Of a stretch of DNA of 64,000 bases, positions 24,113 to 33,179 are shown piece by piece. Source of the DNA: Desulfoscipio sp. XC116. GTDB taxonomy: Bacteria > Bacillota > Desulfotomaculia > Desulfotomaculales > Desulfallaceae. Both the position numbers and the translations under genes were made by a program. How positions within the stretch are numbered: position 1 is the stretch's first letter; every line of letters begins with the position of its first letter. Below the pieces are notes generated by a model. That model was not told the origin of the DNA, did not search any database, and was given only the letters and a program-made list of their open reading frames with translations. Location: assembly GCF_039851975.1 (NCBI RefSeq), contig NZ_CP156660.1:3477035-3541034 (forward strand), written 5' to 3'.

Positions 24113-25297
24113 TTATACGGAATATTTGACCGCCCCTTTATCCTCAGCCGGTACATTGGAATCAGTTGCCCGGCCATGCCGGTGTTTAGGAAGGATATTG
24201 AAATTTTCTACGACGAACAGATAACCAAGCACACCAATGGCTATCAAACCAATGCTGACCAACCACTCGATCACGGAGGGGAAGTAAAAACCGCCCATAA
24301 AACCGGACATACCGGTAAATACAACATTCATCCGGTTAATAATGACACCCGCCACCACCAGCACCCCGAAGGTCACCAAGCCACCCTTGCTGGCGCGCAG
24401 CTTCGGACTGAAACATATAATGATAGGAATGATTATACCGGCCACCATTTCCAGCAGAAACATGTTACCTTCCAAATTACCCTGGAAAACCAGTCCGGCA
24501 GCCCCGCGGTACACCAGGTCGACCACTTTCATTACGAGGTAAACCAGCATCATATAACCGGACACCTTAATCAAAGACTGCAAAACACCAAGGTCGACCT
24601 TATGCCCATGCGCCCTGCCTGCCAGCATAGTCTCCACAGTTACCATCGCCGGTCCCACAAAGAAGGACGACATTAAAAAGAACACCGGCAGCAGCATGGA
24701 CCACCAAAGCGGGTACAGCTTGCCCACCTCAATCACATACAGCGAGCCCAACGAAGACTGGTGCAGCGTGGGCAGCAACACACCAATAATCAGCAGCACG
24801 GGCATGATTTTTTTGAAAATTCCATGCCAGCGTTTTTGCACCTTTTCAGTAGCCACCTCGCCGAATTCAAGCAGCTGAATCATTGTATACAGTGATATGC
24901 ACCAAAACACTTCAAACAAAACACTATGATAACCCCAGGAAACAAACGGGCGCCAGAAGTTGAACCAACGGCCGATATCCATAAATAACCCGGCCATCAC
25001 CAATAAATAACCGATTAACGAAGTTAACATAGCACTGCGGGCAATGGGACTAAATTTTTTTATGCCCATGATGTGCACTAAAAGCGCCGTGCTGTAACCA
25101 CCGCCGGCCAACGCCACGCCGGTAAGCACATCAAAACCGATCCACAGACCCCAGGGCCATTCATTGTTTAGATTGGTAGCACTGCCCAGCCCGAACACCA
25201 GCCTGTACACCATCAGCAGCATACCCAGCGCACCCAGCACCAGCAACACATACCTGGTGGGGGTCATAGGAAAACGCCATTTATCACTAGTGGCCAT
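24113..25297 (-). CDS. NrfD/PsrC/HybB-type integral membrane subunit
   Basis: A 394-residue polytopic protein with about ten membrane helices. It has family features such as WGLWIGFDVLTGVALAGGGY near the N-terminus. Known: NrfD-type subunits anchor periplasmic oxidoreductases and exchange electrons with menaquinone. ATG 25297 has GGGAGG upstream. It is the last gene of the hydrogenase operon, 21 bases after the Fe-S subunit. Inference: it links the exported [FeFe]-hydrogenase to the quinone pool, in the direction of either H2 uptake or reverse-electron-driven H2 release. Confidence 0.9.
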   Translation of the reverse strand: MATSDKWRFPMTPTRYVLLVLGALGMLLMVYRLVFGLGSATNLNNEWPWGLWIGFDVLTGVALAGGGYSTALLVHIMGIKKFSPIARSAMLTSLIGYLLVMAGLFMDIGRWFNFWRPFVSWGYHSVLFEVFWCISLYTMIQLLEFGEVATEKVQKRWHGIFKKIMPVLLIIGVLLPTLHQSSLGSLYVIEVGKLYPLWWSMLLPVFFLMSSFFVGPAMVTVETMLAGRAHGHKVDLGVLQSLIKVSGYMMLVYLVMKVVDLVYRGAAGLVFQGNLEGNMFLLEMVAGIIIPIIICFSPKLRASKGGLVTFGVLVVAGVIINRMNVVFTGMSGFMGGFYFPSVIEWLVSIGLIAIGVLGYLFVVENFNILPKHRHGRATDSNVPAEDKGAVKYSV

Positions 25298-25321
25298 CAC
25301 AAAGCCTCCCTGTCGATTAGT

Positions 25322-26143
25322 TTAACCGTTATCTTTACCGGACTTATTTTCCCGAGCAATTTCGTTGCGCCGACGGTTGTACACGTACATGCCGGTTAGC
25401 AGTGCTCCCCAGCCCAGTCCCACGGCCGGCGTCAAGCTCAGTATACTTTCGGTATACTGGGGCAGCGGCCTGGTAGTGATGTTGGTGCGGAAGCCCAATG
25501 CTTCAAAAGGCACATCCGATATATACAGCCAGGCCGTGCCCCCGGCCTCTTTTTCACCATAGATATGCTTTATGTAGCTGCTGTCGCTGTTTATTTTTTC
25601 GCGGGCCTGGCTTAGCAGATTATGGCGATCGCCATAAGTAAGCGCGCCCGCCGGACATACACCTACACAGGCCGGGCTTTCACCCGCATGCAAGCGATCC
25701 GAGCACATCTGGCATTTGCGTACCTGGGGAAAAGTCTTATCCCACTCATATTTGGGAATATTAAACGGACAGGCCAGCATGCAATACCGGCAGCCCACAC
25801 ATAAATTTGCATCGTACACCACCGGGCCATCCTTGGTCTTTTTAATAGCCTTGGAAAAACAAGCCGAAGCACAGGCCGGCTCCTCGCAGTGCAGACACTG
25901 GTTTTTAACAAACCGCCACACTGATTCATTACCCTTCTTAGTTTCCACTTTATTAACTACAGTCCAGTTCTCCGCATCAAGGCTTGCTTCACCGCCTTTA
26001 TCCGAAGCGGTCCGAGTATATTGCAATTTGTTCCACATTTTACAGGCCACCATACAACTGCCACAGCCCACGCACTTGGTGAGGTCAACTAATACTCCCT
26101 TTGACAAACCATTCACCCGCCTTGTCAGAAATTCTTTTAACAT
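25322..26143 (-). CDS. HybA/HmcB-type 4Fe-4S ferredoxin subunit with C-terminal membrane anchor
   Basis: A 273-residue protein with four 4Fe-4S cluster motifs: CVGCGSCMVACKMW, CLHCEEPACASAC, CVGCRYCMLACPF and CQMCSDRL...CVGVCP. The C-terminus has one membrane helix (SLTPAVGLGWGALLTGMY). This is the DmsB/HybA electron-transfer fold. No clear signal peptide: the start carries an RR (TRRVNG) but no hydrophobic segment follows, so it may be exported together with the Tat-dependent hydrogenase. Located between the hydrogenase and NrfD genes, it should carry electrons between them. Confidence 0.9.
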   Translation of the reverse strand: MLKEFLTRRVNGLSKGVLVDLTKCVGCGSCMVACKMWNKLQYTRTASDKGGEASLDAENWTVVNKVETKKGNESVWRFVKNQCLHCEEPACASACFSKAIKKTKDGPVVYDANLCVGCRYCMLACPFNIPKYEWDKTFPQVRKCQMCSDRLHAGESPACVGVCPAGALTYGDRHNLLSQAREKINSDSSYIKHIYGEKEAGGTAWLYISDVPFEALGFRTNITTRPLPQYTESILSLTPAVGLGWGALLTGMYVYNRRRNEIARENKSGKDNG

Positions 26144-26320
26144 ATTAATAATTGCAATTAATCAGTCGGTAAAAATATTAAACCCTGTAAACTACTTTAA
26201 TTGCCAACTAATCACTATCCGGCCGGAAATTGATAAGTTATTTCGCAAACGGAGTTAACCGGTAATATATAAGGGATAGCAACTATAAAACCAGCAATTA
26301 ATAGGTAGATTTAATTTCCG

Positions 26321-27892
26321 TCAGGCTGTGAGCTGTTTAGCTTTTTTGCCCCGGTCGGTATAGCTGGTATGCAGCAGTTCCTCGGCCAGTTCACTCATCG
26401 GATGCTCCAGGAAGTTCTGATACAAGGCAAGCACCTCGGAGTTTTCATGGCTCTCACGCCACTGCATGCGAGCATCCGCTTGATACAGGCTGTTAATCCT
26501 CTGCATGCGCACCTCGTCGGAGGGCGGCACTGCGGACCGGGGCTGCCCGCCTCCGCTAATGCACCCGCCGGGACAGCACATGAATTCCACAAAATGCCAG
26601 GGCGCGTTACCCTTACGCACTGCTTCCAACACCTGCCGGCCATTACTCATACCGTGACAGACCGCCACCTTCACCGTACCCACGCCGGGCACATCTACCG
26701 CCGCCTCTTTAACCCCTTCCAAGCCGCGCACCGGAGTAAGGGTCAAAAGATTGGCCGGAGGCTGCTGCTGAGTAATGAAGTAATACGCGGAACGCACCGC
26801 CGCCTCCATCACGCCACCCGTAGCGCCGAAAATAATTGCGCCGCCGGTGCTTTTACCCAACAGGGGGTCATAGTTTTGTTCCGGCAATTTGTTCAAATCA
26901 ATGCCTTGCTGCTTGATTAGCCGGGCCAGTTCGCGGGTAGTTAATACTGCATCCATATCCCGCATATTCTGTTTATTCCAATAGTGAGCGCTGCTGTTCA
27001 TTTCCGGGCGCTGAACCTCAAATTTTTTGGCGGTGCAGGGCATAATGGATACCGAAACGATGTTTTCCGGGTTAATGTTTTTCATCTTAGCATAGTACGT
27101 TTTGACCAGCGCACCCAGCATCTGCTGAGGTGATTTACAGCTGGACATGTGGGGCAGCAAGTCCGGGTAGAAATATTCACAAAACTTTACCCAGCCCGGG
27201 CTGCAGGAGGTGAACTGGGGCAGCGGCTTATTTATATCTCCCTTGATCCGCTTAATCAGTTCCGTAGCCTCTTCCATAATAGTTAAATCAGCTGAAAAAT
27301 TGGTATCAAACACCGCGTCGAAGCCCAAACGTTTTAAAGCCGCTACTTGCTGGCCCATCACCCAGGTGCCCGGAGCCAGCCCGAACTCCTCGCCCAGCGC
27401 CACTCTGGTGGCCGGAGCAGTTTGTACTACTACATGTTTGTCGGGGTCCTGCAGAGCCTGCAGTACTTTTTGAGTATCATCCCGCTCGGTAATAGCTGCG
27501 GTGGGACACCACAGCGCACACTGTCCGCAGTTAACGCATACCATTTCATCCGCAAGCGGCAGGCCATAATGACCAAAAACCGATTGGATGTTTTTGCATA
27601 CCTCCAGGCACTGCCCGCATAAAATGCATTTTTCATCGTCCCGAACAATGGATGGATTATCCGGAGTAATGGGCACCCGCCCCCGCACCTGGGCCGGCCA
27701 GGCTCCCCGCCCTTGGTATTGCTGGGGCAGCCAGCCGTCCCCACCGGCTTGTCCCGCTACAGTTGAGGCACCGCACCCGGCCAGGCTCACCGTAATGCCG
27801 GCCAGTCCCAACCCTCCCATCATTCTTAGAAAAGACCGCCTGGTTACTTGCTTTTCCAGCCGCAGCTCATCATCTTTGACACGGTCGTCCAT
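26321..27892 (-). CDS. hydA: Tat-exported lipoprotein [FeFe]-hydrogenase, large and small subunit fused
   Basis: Seen: Tat signal TRRSFLR followed by a hydrophobic stretch and lipobox SLAGC (residues about 18-40). Then two 4Fe-4S motifs (CILCGQCLEVCK, CVNCGQCALWCP) and complete H-cluster motifs: L1 TSCSPGWVKFCE, L2 MPCTAKKFE, L3 CCPGGCISGGGQP. The C-terminal region (SLYQADARMQWRESHENSEV onward) is the small-subunit domain. Known: this enzyme interconverts H2 and protons; maturation needs HydE/F/G in the cytoplasm, so it must fold before Tat export. ATG 27892 has AAGGAGG upstream. Operon: tatA, tatC, hydA, Fe-S subunit, NrfD. Confidence 0.94.
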   Translation of the reverse strand: MDDRVKDDELRLEKQVTRRSFLRMMGGLGLAGITVSLAGCGASTVAGQAGGDGWLPQQYQGRGAWPAQVRGRVPITPDNPSIVRDDEKCILCGQCLEVCKNIQSVFGHYGLPLADEMVCVNCGQCALWCPTAAITERDDTQKVLQALQDPDKHVVVQTAPATRVALGEEFGLAPGTWVMGQQVAALKRLGFDAVFDTNFSADLTIMEEATELIKRIKGDINKPLPQFTSCSPGWVKFCEYFYPDLLPHMSSCKSPQQMLGALVKTYYAKMKNINPENIVSVSIMPCTAKKFEVQRPEMNSSAHYWNKQNMRDMDAVLTTRELARLIKQQGIDLNKLPEQNYDPLLGKSTGGAIIFGATGGVMEAAVRSAYYFITQQQPPANLLTLTPVRGLEGVKEAAVDVPGVGTVKVAVCHGMSNGRQVLEAVRKGNAPWHFVEFMCCPGGCISGGGQPRSAVPPSDEVRMQRINSLYQADARMQWRESHENSEVLALYQNFLEHPMSELAEELLHTSYTDRGKKAKQLTA

Positions 27893-28023
27893 AATATACC
27901 TCCTTAAGGTCATACTTAAACCTTATAGCTATCCTTAAAAAGCTATTCCCAAAAAATTCAAATCACCATCTACGCTGTGCTTTGCAGTTGCCATTTTAAT
28001 GTGCCTGTTAACGTGCCTGCGAT

Positions 28024-28132
28024 TGTCATTGCAAGCGCAAGCAAAGCAATCTCAGACCCCGAAGCAGGTCTCCAAAGAAATGCGGGCTGCAAAACAGAGA
28101 TTGCTTCGCCGCCTCACTCCTCGCAATGGCAG
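28024..28132. repeat. Dispersed palindromic repeat, copy 1
   Basis: About 110 bases bounded by TGTCATTGCAAGCG and its inverted counterpart CTCGCAATGGCA, with inner inverted GCAATCTC / GAGATTGC. The inner part is the reverse complement of copy 3 at 57124-57251. It lies in the tatC-hydA intergenic gap (27893-28205), which holds no gene. Confidence 0.8.
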
Positions 28133-28205
28133 CGCCGCAGGCTGTATTCACAGCAATAACAGACCAAGGTACTGCGTTTGCCGGCACAGCCGTCTATCTA
28201 ATATA

Positions 28206-29033
28206 TTATTTAGCCGTCAGTCCCCTGCGCATGACCTTGCGCAGCAAGCGTTTAAAAAATGCCTTCAAATTAAATGTTTTTCCAGCCTGTTTGCGATACT
28301 TCATCCATTCTACCAGGCGGACTATAGTAGCGCTGATTTCGTATAAAAGATACATGGGGGCCGCAAAAAGCAATACTGTAAATATGTCGGGAGAGGCCAC
28401 CAGGGCAGCGGCAATCACAACCGCGGCCACGATAGCTATTTTTCGTCCCTTAACCATCATCCGGTAGTTGATAATGCCCAGCCTGGCCAGAAAATAACCG
28501 GCCAAAGGCAATTCAAAGACTAACCCGAAAGGCAGCAAAAAGTTTAAAGTAAAGGAAACGTATTTGCCGATAGTCAGCATGGGCACAAGTTCAGCGCCCC
28601 CGTAGCGCAGTAAAAAGGTAACACACATACGGAAAACGACAAGAAAGCCGAAGGCCACGCCGCCAATAAAAAGCAAAAAGGAAACCAATATAAAAAAGGT
28701 GAAATAAATGCGCTCCAGCTTACGCAAAGCAGGAATGATAAACCCCCAAAACTGCCAGAGAGTTACCGGCAAAGATGCTAAAAATCCCAGGAAAAAGGCC
28801 AGTTTTATTTTAGTCATTATTGCTTCGGTGACACCGATGTAGATTATCTTATTACCGGTGCCGGTTACCGGTTCCAGCAATATCCTGAGTACGGGATCGC
28901 TTAAAAACCAGCACACCACCGCCATGGCAAAAGTGGATATTATCGAGACGATAATTACCCGGCGCAGTTCCTCCAGGTGCTGCATTACCGACATCTCTTC
29001 ATATTGGGCTGTTTGCTGGTTTTTTATTTGCAC
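28206..29033 (-). CDS. tatC: Sec-independent translocase TatC
   Basis: A 275-residue six-helix membrane protein with the TatC hallmarks: MQHLEELRRV near the N-terminus and the FELPLAGYFLARLGIINY segment in the fifth helix region. Known: TatC recognises twin-arginine signals. The C-terminal cytosolic tail (LVEWMKYRKQAGKTFNLKAF onward) is basic and longer than usual. It lies downstream of tatA and upstream of the Tat-dependent hydrogenase on the same strand, 314 bases before the hydA start, a gap that contains the dispersed repeat. Confidence 0.94.
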   Translation of the reverse strand: MQIKNQQTAQYEEMSVMQHLEELRRVIIVSIISTFAMAVVCWFLSDPVLRILLEPVTGTGNKIIYIGVTEAIMTKIKLAFFLGFLASLPVTLWQFWGFIIPALRKLERIYFTFFILVSFLLFIGGVAFGFLVVFRMCVTFLLRYGGAELVPMLTIGKYVSFTLNFLLPFGLVFELPLAGYFLARLGIINYRMMVKGRKIAIVAAVVIAAALVASPDIFTVLLFAAPMYLLYEISATIVRLVEWMKYRKQAGKTFNLKAFFKRLLRKVMRRGLTAK

Positions 29034-29092
29034 CGCCCCCTTTGCTTATAATGGTAGGCCCGGAAAACTGCGTCCCGCCTTAAACCGGGCTG

Positions 29093-29362
29093 TTATTGTG
29101 CATTGGTGCCGGTGCTTTGCGGAGCATTTTGTACAGAGGCGGCTACATTACCGGCTCCGTCCTTTGTCAGCACATCTAATTCTTTTTTGTTTGGTTTACT
29201 CTCTTTGCTTTCCTCATCTTCAGCAGCAAAAGAGTTCCTCATGTCCCGCATTGCCTTGCCCATAGCTTTGGCGGCATCAGGCAATTTGCCGGGCCCAAAA
29301 ACAATGAGTACTACCACGAGAATGAGAATCAGATGAGTAGGTTGAAAGAGTCCGTTAAACAT
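29093..29362 (-). CDS. tatA: TatA/TatE family translocase subunit
   Basis: An 89-residue protein with one N-terminal helix (PTHLILILVVVLIVFGPGKL), the FGPGKLPD hinge, an amphipathic helix (AAKAMGKAMRDMRNSF) and an acidic/polar tail. Known: TatA polymerises into the Tat pore. The ATG has AAGGAGGGG upstream. First gene of the tatA-tatC-hydrogenase operon. Confidence 0.94.
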   Translation of the reverse strand: MFNGLFQPTHLILILVVVLIVFGPGKLPDAAKAMGKAMRDMRNSFAAEDEESKESKPNKKELDVLTKDGAGNVAASVQNAPQSTGTNAQ

Positions 29363-29690: not shown

Positions 29691-29719
29691 TTGCTTGCCA
29701 GTTAAGTAACCGGTATATA
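29691..29719 (+). promoter_or_regulatory. Promoter candidate of the structured RNA
   Basis: TTGCTT, 17-base spacer, TATATA on the plus strand; predicted start near 29727. Confidence 0.55.
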
Positions 29720-29726
29720 TAATAAC

Positions 29727-29883
29727 TTTAACTGAATTAAAAACATAATAATATCTAACCGATGGCAGGGTTGACAACCTGCCCGGAAGGATTAATCTGA
29801 ACCTTTTATGACTTCACCCTGAGGCAAACAGGTACCGGCGATACTGCGGTCAAGGGGGCAAGGTTTTATATGCTTGCCTTTTT
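29727..29883 (+). ncRNA. Candidate structured non-coding RNA or riboswitch, family not recognised
   Basis: Between tatA and the hydrogenase regulator lies a transcript-like unit: a promoter at 29691-29719, then stems GGCAGG/CCTGCC (29764-29783), AAGG/CCTT, CCTG/CAGG (29818-29832) and ACCG/CGGT (29834-29850). It ends with a textbook terminator GGCAAG/CTTGCC plus TTTTT (29857-29883). A second terminator follows at once. No ORF with a ribosome site is present. Sequence is far more GC-rich and structured than the AT-rich flanks. I do not recognise a riboswitch consensus. It may be a small RNA or a leader attenuator for the downstream hydrogenase-maturation genes. Confidence 0.5.
29857..29883 (+). 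terminator. Intrinsic terminator 1 of the RNA candidate
   Basis: GGCAAG / CTTGCC stem with 10-base loop followed by TTTTT. Confidence 0.8.
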
Positions 29884-29932
29884 AAACAGCCTGTTTATCT
29901 TATATTAGGAGAAAACAGGCTGTTTATTTTTT
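29884..29932 (+). terminator. Intrinsic terminator 2, tandem
   Basis: A perfect 13-bp stem AAACAGCCTGTTT / AAACAGGCTGTTT followed by ATTTTTT. It directly abuts terminator 1. Confidence 0.8.
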
Positions 29933-30092
29933 AATAGAAGCCCGCCTCTAACGGTTAAATCATTAAAAATAAAGACATCATGGACATACCGTTATAGGTG
30001 AATATCATACAGCTGCGCAAAAGAAAGAAATGTTTTACCGGCTGCGGGCTTATAGCCCTCAGCTTCGATAACATGCAAAGGAGGTGTGGTTT

Positions 30093-30344
30093 ATGGTCAT
30101 GGAAAGGCGGATCGGTGTTATTGGTATTGTGGTTGAAAACCGGGAGCAGGCTCCTAAAATTAATGCCATATTAAGCAGCTATGGTGAAGTAATCGTAGGG
30201 CGCATGGGTATTCCCTACCGTGAAAGGGATCTGTCCGTTATTTCACTCATAGTGGACGGCAGCACTGACGAAATAGGCGCTTTAACCGGCAAATTAGGGA
30301 ATATAAGCGGTGTACGGGTGAAAAGCGCACTGGTAACCCGCTAA
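30093..30344 (+). CDS. Iron-only hydrogenase system regulator (TM1266-like, ACT fold)
   Basis: An 83-residue protein of the TM1266 family: RRIGVIGIVVENREQAPKIN start, then GEVIVGRMGIPYRERDLSVI and a C-terminal VRVKSALVTR. This small ferredoxin-like/ACT-like fold is found next to hydE/hydG and [FeFe]-hydrogenases and is annotated as putative system regulator; no direct biochemical role is proven. ATG 30093 is chosen because AAGGAGG lies 8 bases upstream. It leads the regulator-hydE set, 42 bases before hydE. Confidence 0.9.
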   Translation: MVMERRIGVIGIVVENREQAPKINAILSSYGEVIVGRMGIPYRERDLSVISLIVDGSTDEIGALTGKLGNISGVRVKSALVTR

Positions 30345-30386: not shown

Positions 30387-31454
30387 ATGAATTCTTTTCA
30401 AGACTCCCTGCAAAGCTTATCAACCGGCTCGCCACCGAATGAGGAACAAATTACAGCCCTGCTGTCCGCCAATGCCGAGCAAATGCCGGCGCTTCTGTCC
30501 GCGGCAGATAAGGCGCGCAGGCGGGGAGTGGGCGATGCGGTGCACCTTAGGGCCATCATTGAGTTTTCCAACTACTGTCGTAAAAATTGCCTGTACTGCG
30601 GCTTACGTCGGGATAATCGCTCCCTGACCCGTTACCGCCTAACCGAACAGCAAATACTGGATGCCGCCGGTGAGGCGGCCGCCCTGGGGTTCCGCACGGT
30701 AGTGCTGCAATCGGGCGAAGATTTATATTACACCCCGACAGTTATTGCCCGAATAATTGAACGAGTCAAAAACAAATACGATCTGGCCGTCACTTTGTCG
30801 CTGGGTGAGCACAGCCGGCAAACTTATAAAACCTGGCGCGAGGCCGGGGCCGACCGTTACCTGATCAAGCAGGAAACCGCGGACGAACAGCTTTTTAAAC
30901 GTCTAAAGCCTGATACCAGCCTGTCCCGCCGGGTGCAATGTTTGTGCTGGCTCGGAGAACTGGGCTACCAGACCGGATCGGGGAATATGGTGGGACTGCC
31001 GGGACAAAGCCTGCATACTCTGGCCCGGGATATACTGCTCATGCGAAAGCTTGACGTGGACATGGCAGGTATCGGCCCCTTTTTACCCCACCCGGCCACA
31101 CCGCTTAAGAACGCCGCACCGGGCAATCTGGAGCTCACTTTAAAGACACTGGCCATAACCAGGCTTTACCTGCCACAGACTCACCTGCCCGCAACCACGG
31201 CATTGTGCACATTGGCCAAGGACGGACGCAGACTGGCTCTGAGCGGCGGAGCCAACGTAATTATGCCTAATTTGACTCCCCCGGCTGTGCGGGATAAATA
31301 TTTAATTTACCCTCAAAAAGCCGATATCGGTGAAAAGCCCGCCCGGGCGCTGGCCGACATAACCGCTTTACTGGCCGATCTGGGCAGGCCGCTGGCCGGA
31401 GACCGGGGACATGCCGTGAAAAACAAACCAATGGCTTACCCGGAGCTGGCTTAA
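30387..31454 (+). CDS. hydE: [FeFe]-hydrogenase maturase HydE (radical SAM)
   Basis: A 355-residue radical SAM enzyme: cluster motif CRKNCLYCGLR (CX3CX2C, residues about 63-73), LQSGEDLYYT, and a BATS-domain C-terminal half with GGANVIMPNLTP. Known: HydE works with HydG and HydF to build the 2Fe subcluster of the H-cluster (dithiomethylamine-linked intermediate). It is followed by hydG after a 192-base gap; hydF is not in this window. Ribosome site CTGGAG is modest. Confidence 0.94.
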   Translation: MNSFQDSLQSLSTGSPPNEEQITALLSANAEQMPALLSAADKARRRGVGDAVHLRAIIEFSNYCRKNCLYCGLRRDNRSLTRYRLTEQQILDAAGEAAALGFRTVVLQSGEDLYYTPTVIARIIERVKNKYDLAVTLSLGEHSRQTYKTWREAGADRYLIKQETADEQLFKRLKPDTSLSRRVQCLCWLGELGYQTGSGNMVGLPGQSLHTLARDILLMRKLDVDMAGIGPFLPHPATPLKNAAPGNLELTLKTLAITRLYLPQTHLPATTALCTLAKDGRRLALSGGANVIMPNLTPPAVRDKYLIYPQKADIGEKPARALADITALLADLGRPLAGDRGHAVKNKPMAYPELA

Positions 31455-31646: not shown

Positions 31647-33179
31647 ATGCCCACTATGCAAGCTGACTTCATTAACGAACAGCGGATCAACACTTTTTTA
31701 ACTGAGGCCCGGCAGGCGGACAAAGCCTGCGCAAAACGCATTATTGAAAAGGCACGTCAGGCCCGGGGGCTGACGCCCTATGAGTGCGCCGTACTGTTAC
31801 ACATTGAAGACCTCGAATTATTGGAGGAAATGTACCGGGTGGCCCGCCTGATCAAAGAAGGGATTTACGGACGGCGGCTGGTGCTTTTTGCACCCCTGTA
31901 TATCAGCAACTTCTGCATTAATAACTGCGCATACTGCGGCTACCGGCGCGACAACCGATTCACCAGGCGGCGTCTGACTATGGAGGAACTGCGGAAAGAG
32001 GTCAAAGTGCTGGAAGCATTGGGGCACAAGCGGCTGGCCCTGGAAGCCGGGGAAGATCCCCAAAACTGTCCCATAGAGTATGTACTCGAATCTATTAAAA
32101 ACATATATGCGGTAAAAGAAGCCAACGGCAGCATTCGGCGGGTCAACGTCAACATCGCCGCTACGACGGTGGAAAACTACCGGCTGCTAAAGGAAGCCGG
32201 CATCGGCACCTATATTTTGTTCCAGGAAACCTATCACCGAAAAACCTACGCCAATACGCACCCCAGCGGCCCCAAGCACGACTACGACTACCATACCACG
32301 GCTATGGACCGGGCCATGCAGGGCGGCATTGATGATGTAGGCGTGGGAGTACTGTTCGGCCTGTACGACTACAAATATGAGGTACTGGCCTTGTTGCTGC
32401 ACGCCCTGCACCTGGAGGAAGCCTTCGGCGTTGGCCCGCACACCATATCGGTGCCCCGCCTGCGACCGGCACAGGGCGTTAATTACGACAATTTCCCTTA
32501 TTTAGTAGATGATGCGGCTTTTAAAAAGATCATTGCTGTTCTGCGTCTGGCCGTGCCCTATACCGGCATGATTTTGTCCACCCGGGAACGGGCCGAGTTC
32601 CGGGATGAGCTGCTTACCGTGGGCATATCTCAAATCAGTGCCGGCTCCTGCACCGGGGTGGGCGGCTACCAGCAAGAGCACATACGCCAATCCACCGGCA
32701 CCTGCACATATGACGGCAATGCAAGCGGCAATAGTGATACCGATAACAGTATAGGCAAGATTTGCAGTGATAACAGCGGCGGCGGCAGTGACAGCGGCAA
32801 CGGCGGCGCAAGCAGTAATACCAGCGATGAAGCGCCGCAGTTCCAAATTGAAGACCACCGCAGCCCGGATGAAATGCTGCGCAGCGTCTGTCTCTCAGGC
32901 TATATCCCCAGCTTCTGCACCGCCTGTTACCGCAGCGGACGTACCGGCGACAGATTTATGCCTCTGGCTAAAAGCGGGCAAATTCAAAATGTCTGCCAGC
33001 CCAATGCTATTTTAACTTTCAAGGAATTCTTGGTGGATTACGCGTCCCCCGAGACCCGGGCAGTGGGTGAGAAAACCATCCATAAGCACCTGACTGAAAT
33101 CACCAACCCTAAAATCCGCCGGCTGACTGAAGAACGTCTAAAACTAATTGAGCAAGGTCAAAGAGATTTTTATTTTTAG
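31647..33179 (+). CDS. hydG: [FeFe]-hydrogenase maturase HydG with low-complexity insertion
   Basis: A 510-residue radical SAM tyrosine lyase: CINNCAYCGYR motif (residues about 91-101), TIM-barrel core, and the C-terminal auxiliary cluster motif CTACYRSGRTGDRFM. Known: HydG splits tyrosine to supply CO and CN- for the H-cluster. Odd: after SAGSCTGVGGYQQEH, where the family normally continues quickly into PQFQIEDHRS, about 45 residues rich in Gly, Ser, Asn and Asp are inserted (residues about 350-393, DNA about 32695-32830). The frame stays open and both cluster motifs are intact, so the enzyme is probably active. ATG with GGGAGG upstream. Confidence 0.94.
   Translation: MPTMQADFINEQRINTFLTEARQADKACAKRIIEKARQARGLTPYECAVLLHIEDLELLEEMYRVARLIKEGIYGRRLVLFAPLYISNFCINNCAYCGYRRDNRFTRRRLTMEELRKEVKVLEALGHKRLALEAGEDPQNCPIEYVLESIKNIYAVKEANGSIRRVNVNIAATTVENYRLLKEAGIGTYILFQETYHRKTYANTHPSGPKHDYDYHTTAMDRAMQGGIDDVGVGVLFGLYDYKYEVLALLLHALHLEEAFGVGPHTISVPRLRPAQGVNYDNFPYLVDDAAFKKIIAVLRLAVPYTGMILSTRERAEFRDELLTVGISQISAGSCTGVGGYQQEHIRQSTGTCTYDGNASGNSDTDNSIGKICSDNSGGGSDSGNGGASSNTSDEAPQFQIEDHRSPDEMLRSVCLSGYIPSFCTACYRSGRTGDRFMPLAKSGQIQNVCQPNAILTFKEFLVDYASPETRAVGEKTIHKHLTEITNPKIRRLTEERLKLIEQGQRDFYF

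Follow-up and report, generated by a model that had tools for sequence, protein, structure and literature searches.

A conserved RNA leader of [FeFe]-hydrogenase maturation genes, a candidate transcription attenuator and orphan riboswitch

Metabolite-sensing terminator riboswitches, and the orphan candidates found by comparative genomics, combine a conserved two-helix core in front of metabolic and transporter genes with a terminator expression platform, in which core and terminator can pair alternatively. The leader described here shares these features, but no described class has its core sequence or its gene set. The PyrR, HutP and TRAP leaders are protein-bound attenuators; here too a regulator-like gene heads the operon behind the attenuator, but the leader also stands before a transporter and before hydG/hydE genes distant from the regulator gene. 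The T-box leaders of Firmicutes resemble it as antiterminator/terminator leaders, but no T-box match was found at the leader in a search that did find a true T-box elsewhere on a relative's locus (L114). Moco and Wco riboswitches are likewise leaders of cofactor-related genes, and the Wco members that precede ferredoxin hydrogenases are the nearest published parallel, although a different RNA (PMC9481103). In contrast to both, the present leader matches no Rfam model, has another consensus, and has no Moco or W genes directly 3′ of it.

Ammonia-lyases in hyd operons supply nitrogen for the dithiomethylamine ligand, in a study whose main text makes no mention of a riboswitch, TM1266 or a transporter (PMC11736057). 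The literature searched, which covered few subscription papers, contained no RNA regulator of hydE, hydF or hydG, and an earlier naming is possible. The leader class, widely conserved and matched by no Rfam 15 family, is provisionally called undescribed.

The leader and its operon in Desulfoscipio

The window, a stretch of 64,000 nucleotides from Desulfoscipio sp. XC116 (genome G000), holds a gap of 730 bases between tatA (start 29362, minus strand) and the ATG of a putative hydrogenase regulator at 30093, as read from the sequence and its open reading frames. A preliminary description had reported a gap of this length with a good promoter, a structured multi-stem segment and two adjacent terminators, and each of these is borne out below. 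The features are as follows.

29695–29723, plus strand: sigma-70 type promoter TTGCCA-17-TATAAT, 11 of 12 consensus bases matched
29730–29932, plus strand: predicted leader transcript as far as the terminator, from sequence and fold, its start placed from the promoter
29753–29792, plus strand: helix 1, AUCU-AA-CCG...CGG-AA-GGAU, with a two-by-two purine loop; a covarying helix
29817–29857, plus strand: helix 2, the most conserved core, CCCUGAGGCAAACAGGUACC...GAUACUGCGGUCAAGGGG, from alignments and covariance models
29819–29834, plus strand: core strand CUGAGGCAAACAGGUA, complement of the terminator 5′ arm (antiterminator), from a permutation test and folding intermediates
29857–29883, plus strand: first hairpin and U-run (stem-loop 29857–29878), from the fold; variable among relatives
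29883–29932, plus strand: intrinsic terminator (hairpin 2) UAAACAGCCUGUUUAUC...GAAAACAGGCUGUUUA-UUUUUU (hairpin 29883–29926, U-run 29927–29932), conserved in relatives
30077–30084, plus strand: ribosome-binding site AAAGGAGG, from sequence
30093–30344, plus strand: TM1266 family, putative [FeFe]-hydrogenase system regulator (TIGR03959, 120 bits, above cut-off; PF21699)
30387–31454, plus strand: hydE, H-cluster radical SAM maturase (TIGR03956, 363 bits)
31647–33179, plus strand: hydG, H-cluster radical SAM maturase (TIGR03955, 680 bits)

The promoter ranks top in the region, and alignment places promoter-like –35 and –10 elements at the equivalent position in several relatives. The segment 29730–29935 folds at –65.8 kcal/mol, compared with –44.2 ± 4.2 for shuffled sequences (z = –5.2, 0/200). 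Because the two hairpins supply much of this z-score, the folding energy proves little by itself, and the relatives were used as the real test; it is conservation and covariation that carry the case. A simple terminator scanner listed neither hairpin in the region, probably owing to the 10-base loop of hairpin 1 and the internal bulges of hairpin 2. Both hairpins have U-runs, and the retention of hairpin 2 together with its U-run in relatives identifies it as the functional terminator. Hairpin 1 is enclosed by the antiterminator helix in the window's folding intermediate. A minus-strand self-match of the leader was discarded as merely the terminator's own inverted repeat.

The window's TM1266-family protein, a relative of PDB 2nzc, has one domain and 83 residues, and its gene starts 160 bases behind the terminator. 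The encoded HydG (31647–33179) contains a low-complexity insertion with many G, S, N and D residues, and the HydG profile match is split into two stretches. Away from this operon, hydF lies beside an aspA-like gene (G000:C1:3109500-3112200, L284), and a search before this aspA-hydF operon detected no leader. Partial matches to the HydF C-terminus occur apart from the full gene at G000:C1:3145098-3145364 (129 bits) and 3131743-3131868 (40 bits), and are possible duplicates or remnants. On the other side of the gap, 24113–29362 (minus strand) encodes in one run a large [FeFe]-hydrogenase subunit whose N-terminus is twin-arginine-like, subunits resembling HmcB and HmcC, and TatC and TatA; this is probably an exported hydrogenase with Tat genes of its own.

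Conserved core and distribution among relatives

Searching the family at the DNA level located eight genomes with conserved copies, centred on 29816–29868; the short A+T-rich matches past the first nine or so look like chance. In seven of these eight relatives, whose genes were named from their similarity to HydE and HydG of the window (both HMM-confirmed), the leader lies directly 5′ of TM1266 and the other hyd maturation genes, sometimes with an ammonia-lyase gene between. The eighth (L040 8887–8990, in G010) is a decayed leader at the old tat locus, which TM1266 has since left; the core of this copy and its downstream arm (GATAAGCAGG / CCTGCTTATC) retain their complementarity. In G010, G011, G012 and G014, where TM1266 has relocated, a leader of the same plan stands in front of the relocated gene.

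The eight aligned relatives give the consensus YCCU-GA-CCG...CGG-RA-GGGR for helix 1 and CCCU-GM-GGC-AAACA-GGUACC...GGUACU-GCG-GUC-A-AGGG for helix 2, and share the terminator arm CCUGUUU. Covariation in homologous loci was examined in an alignment of 25 sequences that was not fitted to the structure. In this alignment 91.6% of cells are paired, with 39 double-change cells compared with 11.1 ± 2.8 in shuffles (0/500) and a maximum of 15 for slid structures; the pair register was picked by eye from this very alignment, and that somewhat favours the tested structure. Helix 2 pair 71–110 is C-G in 20 sequences and U-A in 5, and helix 1 pair 8–35 is C-G in 13, G-C in 8 and A-U in 3. Almost no variation is seen in the closing U.G pair or in the purine loops. 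The 5′ leader thus contains a conserved, covarying structure like that of an aptamer.

A covariance model built from the eight sequences matched 13 genomes of the window's order. Adding 80 TM1266 loci from named genomes brought in Moorella, Pelotomaculum, Desulfofundulus, Desulfotruncus and others, and every new weak match of the model in these loci was just 5′ of TM1266. A refined model of 25 sequences gave 50 matches at E ≤ 0.05 among 398 genomes of the phylum. The next gene was TM1266 in 35, hydE, hydG or aspA-hydF in 12 (hydE and hydG named by resemblance, and L201 from a partial frame), an SsuABC-like ABC transporter in 2, and one match was false, in coding sequence. At E ≤ 0.01, 68 of 113 genomes of the window's order had a covariance-model match, with two of the weaker ones, on inspection, inside coding sequence (L312, L314); these were discarded for that reason, as were L064, L065 and L211. 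Plasmid and phage collections yielded no leader match.

A loose leader pattern was present at 55 of 79 TM1266 loci, compared with 9.7% of control windows. By eye and by pattern, the motif was provisionally located in Desulfofervidaceae (L136), a Deltaproteobacterium (L134), Armatimonadetes (L140) and Hydrogenedentes (L132). The leader class is distributed across the Clostridia and extends, provisionally and by motif, into a few other phyla. Upstream of TM1266 in L131, L133, L138, L141 and L143 are one-helix leaders, CCUGACCGCAAGG...GAGCGGGAAGGCG, and at least L131, L133, L141 and L143 have another conserved hairpin, GUAUCUGC...GGGAUAC, further 5′. One-helix leaders (e.g. L131, L133, L140) were assigned by eye and the loose pattern rather than by a covariance model, so that their membership is provisional; the one-helix leaders of L131, L133, L138, L141 and L143 may be a second leader type.

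The 160 bases from terminator to regulator in the window, together with the good promoter, would suit a free-standing small RNA that acts in trans and has the terminators as its 3′ end. We consider this highly improbable: in many relatives no more than a few dozen bases separate the terminator from the start codon, the leader stays 5′ of hyd genes while the upstream genes vary, and its core is built to compete with the terminator (see below). Its position also depends on the genes downstream, hyd or transporter genes lying behind 49 of the 50 phylum matches. The earlier options of an abundant small RNA or a general RNA find no support.

Another reading places the leader in a known riboswitch family, as a divergent member that scores below Rfam thresholds; the Moco/Wco family is an example, tandem Wco riboswitches having been reported before ferredoxin hydrogenase genes (PMC9481103). 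Searches against the 4227 families of Rfam 15 found none at gathering score for the window leader, Moco included, and no sensible fit on the leader region at E ≤ 10. Eight relatives at E ≤ 1 gave no leader match; for 17 relatives, a T-box and a yjdF element were the only matches, both unrelated to the leader and lying elsewhere on the loci. With no Moco or other riboswitch family fitting the leader in the window or in relatives, and with a core consensus that is the leader's own, this reading is close to refuted, and the preliminary statement that no known riboswitch core is recognisable holds.

Competition between core and terminator

In each leader, the core strand and the 5′ arm of that leader's terminator are complementary. 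For 38 non-redundant loci, the duplex energy of the core with its own terminator arm was –12.4, compared with –10.35 for exchanged arms (z = –5.3, 0/20000), while a control pairing of the segment upstream of the core with the terminator arm gave z = –1.2. The permutation mean, not a ranking of the best own arm, serves as the attenuation test; the ranking (2 of 38) was uninformative, probably because related loci share arms. From lineage to lineage the complementary sequences change: AAACAGG pairs with CCUGUUU in the window, GCGAAAAGG with CCUUUUUUCGC in L072, UGCGGGGAGGGUU with AACCCGACCCGCA in L136, and AGCGGAAAGG with CCUUUCCGCU in L131.

For window intermediates ending at 29895–29912, the antiterminator is the predicted fold. 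Two observations weigh against this account: when intermediates were folded, the core paired with over 30% of the arm in only 32 of 55 leaders, and certain members, such as L070, L082, L111 and L151, show weak pairing of core and terminator. The complementarity of core and own terminator arm makes the two alternatives, as in a transcription attenuator, and the permutation test and folding intermediates indicate an expression platform alternative to the aptamer-like fold. Attenuation by the leader is strongly supported, and we are highly confident that the RNA is a conserved leader that attenuates transcription of [FeFe]-hydrogenase maturation genes. The RNA in the gap is probably a switch that stops transcription of the genes building the [FeFe]-hydrogenase active site.

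In the proposed mechanism, RNA polymerase would make the two helices first. As long as nothing holds helix 2, its strand GGCAAACAGGUA would pair with the terminator 5′ arm CCUGUUU and the operon would be read. A ligand holding the two-helix core would let the terminator form, and transcription would stop near 29932. Since the terminator can form once the core is stabilized, the switch is predicted to be OFF with ligand.

Transporter copies and the putative ligand

A second copy of the RNA in the window's genome (G000:C1:3093386-3093473, minus strand, L193) lies behind genes resembling hypD, hypE and hypF and is followed by genes for a permease, an ATPase and a binding protein. It has its own promoter-like sequence and its own terminator. 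The binding protein belongs to the SsuA family (TIGR01728, 193 bits, above cut-off) and falls under NMT1 in Pfam. RNA copies are present 5′ of orthologous transporters in G012 and G013 (of one genus with G000), of a transporter in G133 with a 44% identical binding protein, and of one in G256 (31.9 bits). G083 has a weak copy (E 0.008) 5′ of a different NMT1-type transporter. A copy was hinted at for the G463 transporter (L266, 11 bits) and was sought and not found at that of G050 (L264). In G300, TM1266-hydE-hydF come directly after an SsuABC-like transporter, within a single run of genes. SsuABC-like transporters also lie directly behind a gene resembling an [FeFe]-hydrogenase or NuoG-type subunit in L270 and L271 (G288 and G359), with no match of the refined model at the transporter.

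The transporter copies in G000, four other genomes and, weakly, a sixth imply that the leader is not bound to the TM1266 gene. Leaders away from that gene are found at L193, L200, L267, L303, L304, L194, L196 and L197, and a tie to TM1266 in cis only was dropped, as copies precede a transporter and other hyd genes. The gene set, hyd maturation together with SsuABC/NMT1-type transporters, points to one pathway or ligand. That the regulon joins assembly with uptake favours a small molecule, and the second copy in front of an uptake transporter hints at what the RNA senses.

In the main rival reading, the leader would be the binding site of a protein, most simply TM1266, that closes the attenuator of its own operon and those of other hyd and transporter genes in trans, in the manner of PyrR, HutP or TRAP. 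TM1266 is the commonest first gene behind the leader (35 of 50), encodes a small one-domain protein of 83 residues, and was accompanied by the leader when it moved in G010, G011, G012 and G014. Its occurrence in 16 of the 16 genomes checked (G378, with a false match only, among them) leaves room for action in trans. We nonetheless regard a protein-bound leader as unlikely. Five loci from named genomes (L079, L095, L110, L118, L122) have TM1266 behind coding sequence and no leader, the more distant TM1266-like paralogues away from hyd genes (L160–L167) also lack one, and the long conserved core, non-helical internal loop and transporter use give the RNA the usual look of a riboswitch.

The RNA is best read as an orphan riboswitch that would switch off the assembly of the H-cluster and, in certain genomes, also the import of a compound. 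We favour, with moderate confidence, the full account of a TM1266-hydE-hydG 5′ leader acting as an attenuator that is OFF with a small-molecule ligand tied to H-cluster assembly; direct sensing of a small molecule by the RNA seems somewhat better than an even chance. The ligand would most likely be a small molecule tied to H-cluster assembly, possibly the cargo of the SsuABC-like transporter that bears its own RNA copy. More tentatively, and at less than even odds, the RNA may be a new riboswitch class whose ligand is an unrecognised H-cluster building block or assembly product imported by that transporter. A metabolite-sensing leader controlling H2 metabolism had been suggested from the window's sequence; its leader part is strongly supported by the RNA preceding hyd maturation genes in relatives, and the sensing is what we infer.

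The leader class gives access to the question of how anaerobes control H2 metabolism, and the hyd-linked transporter, as its second gene set, offers a route to the compound sensed. TM1266, annotated only as a putative regulator, gains a defined genetic context. If the RNA is indeed a riboswitch for an H-cluster ligand, it would report H-cluster supply and name a missing import step of the pathway.
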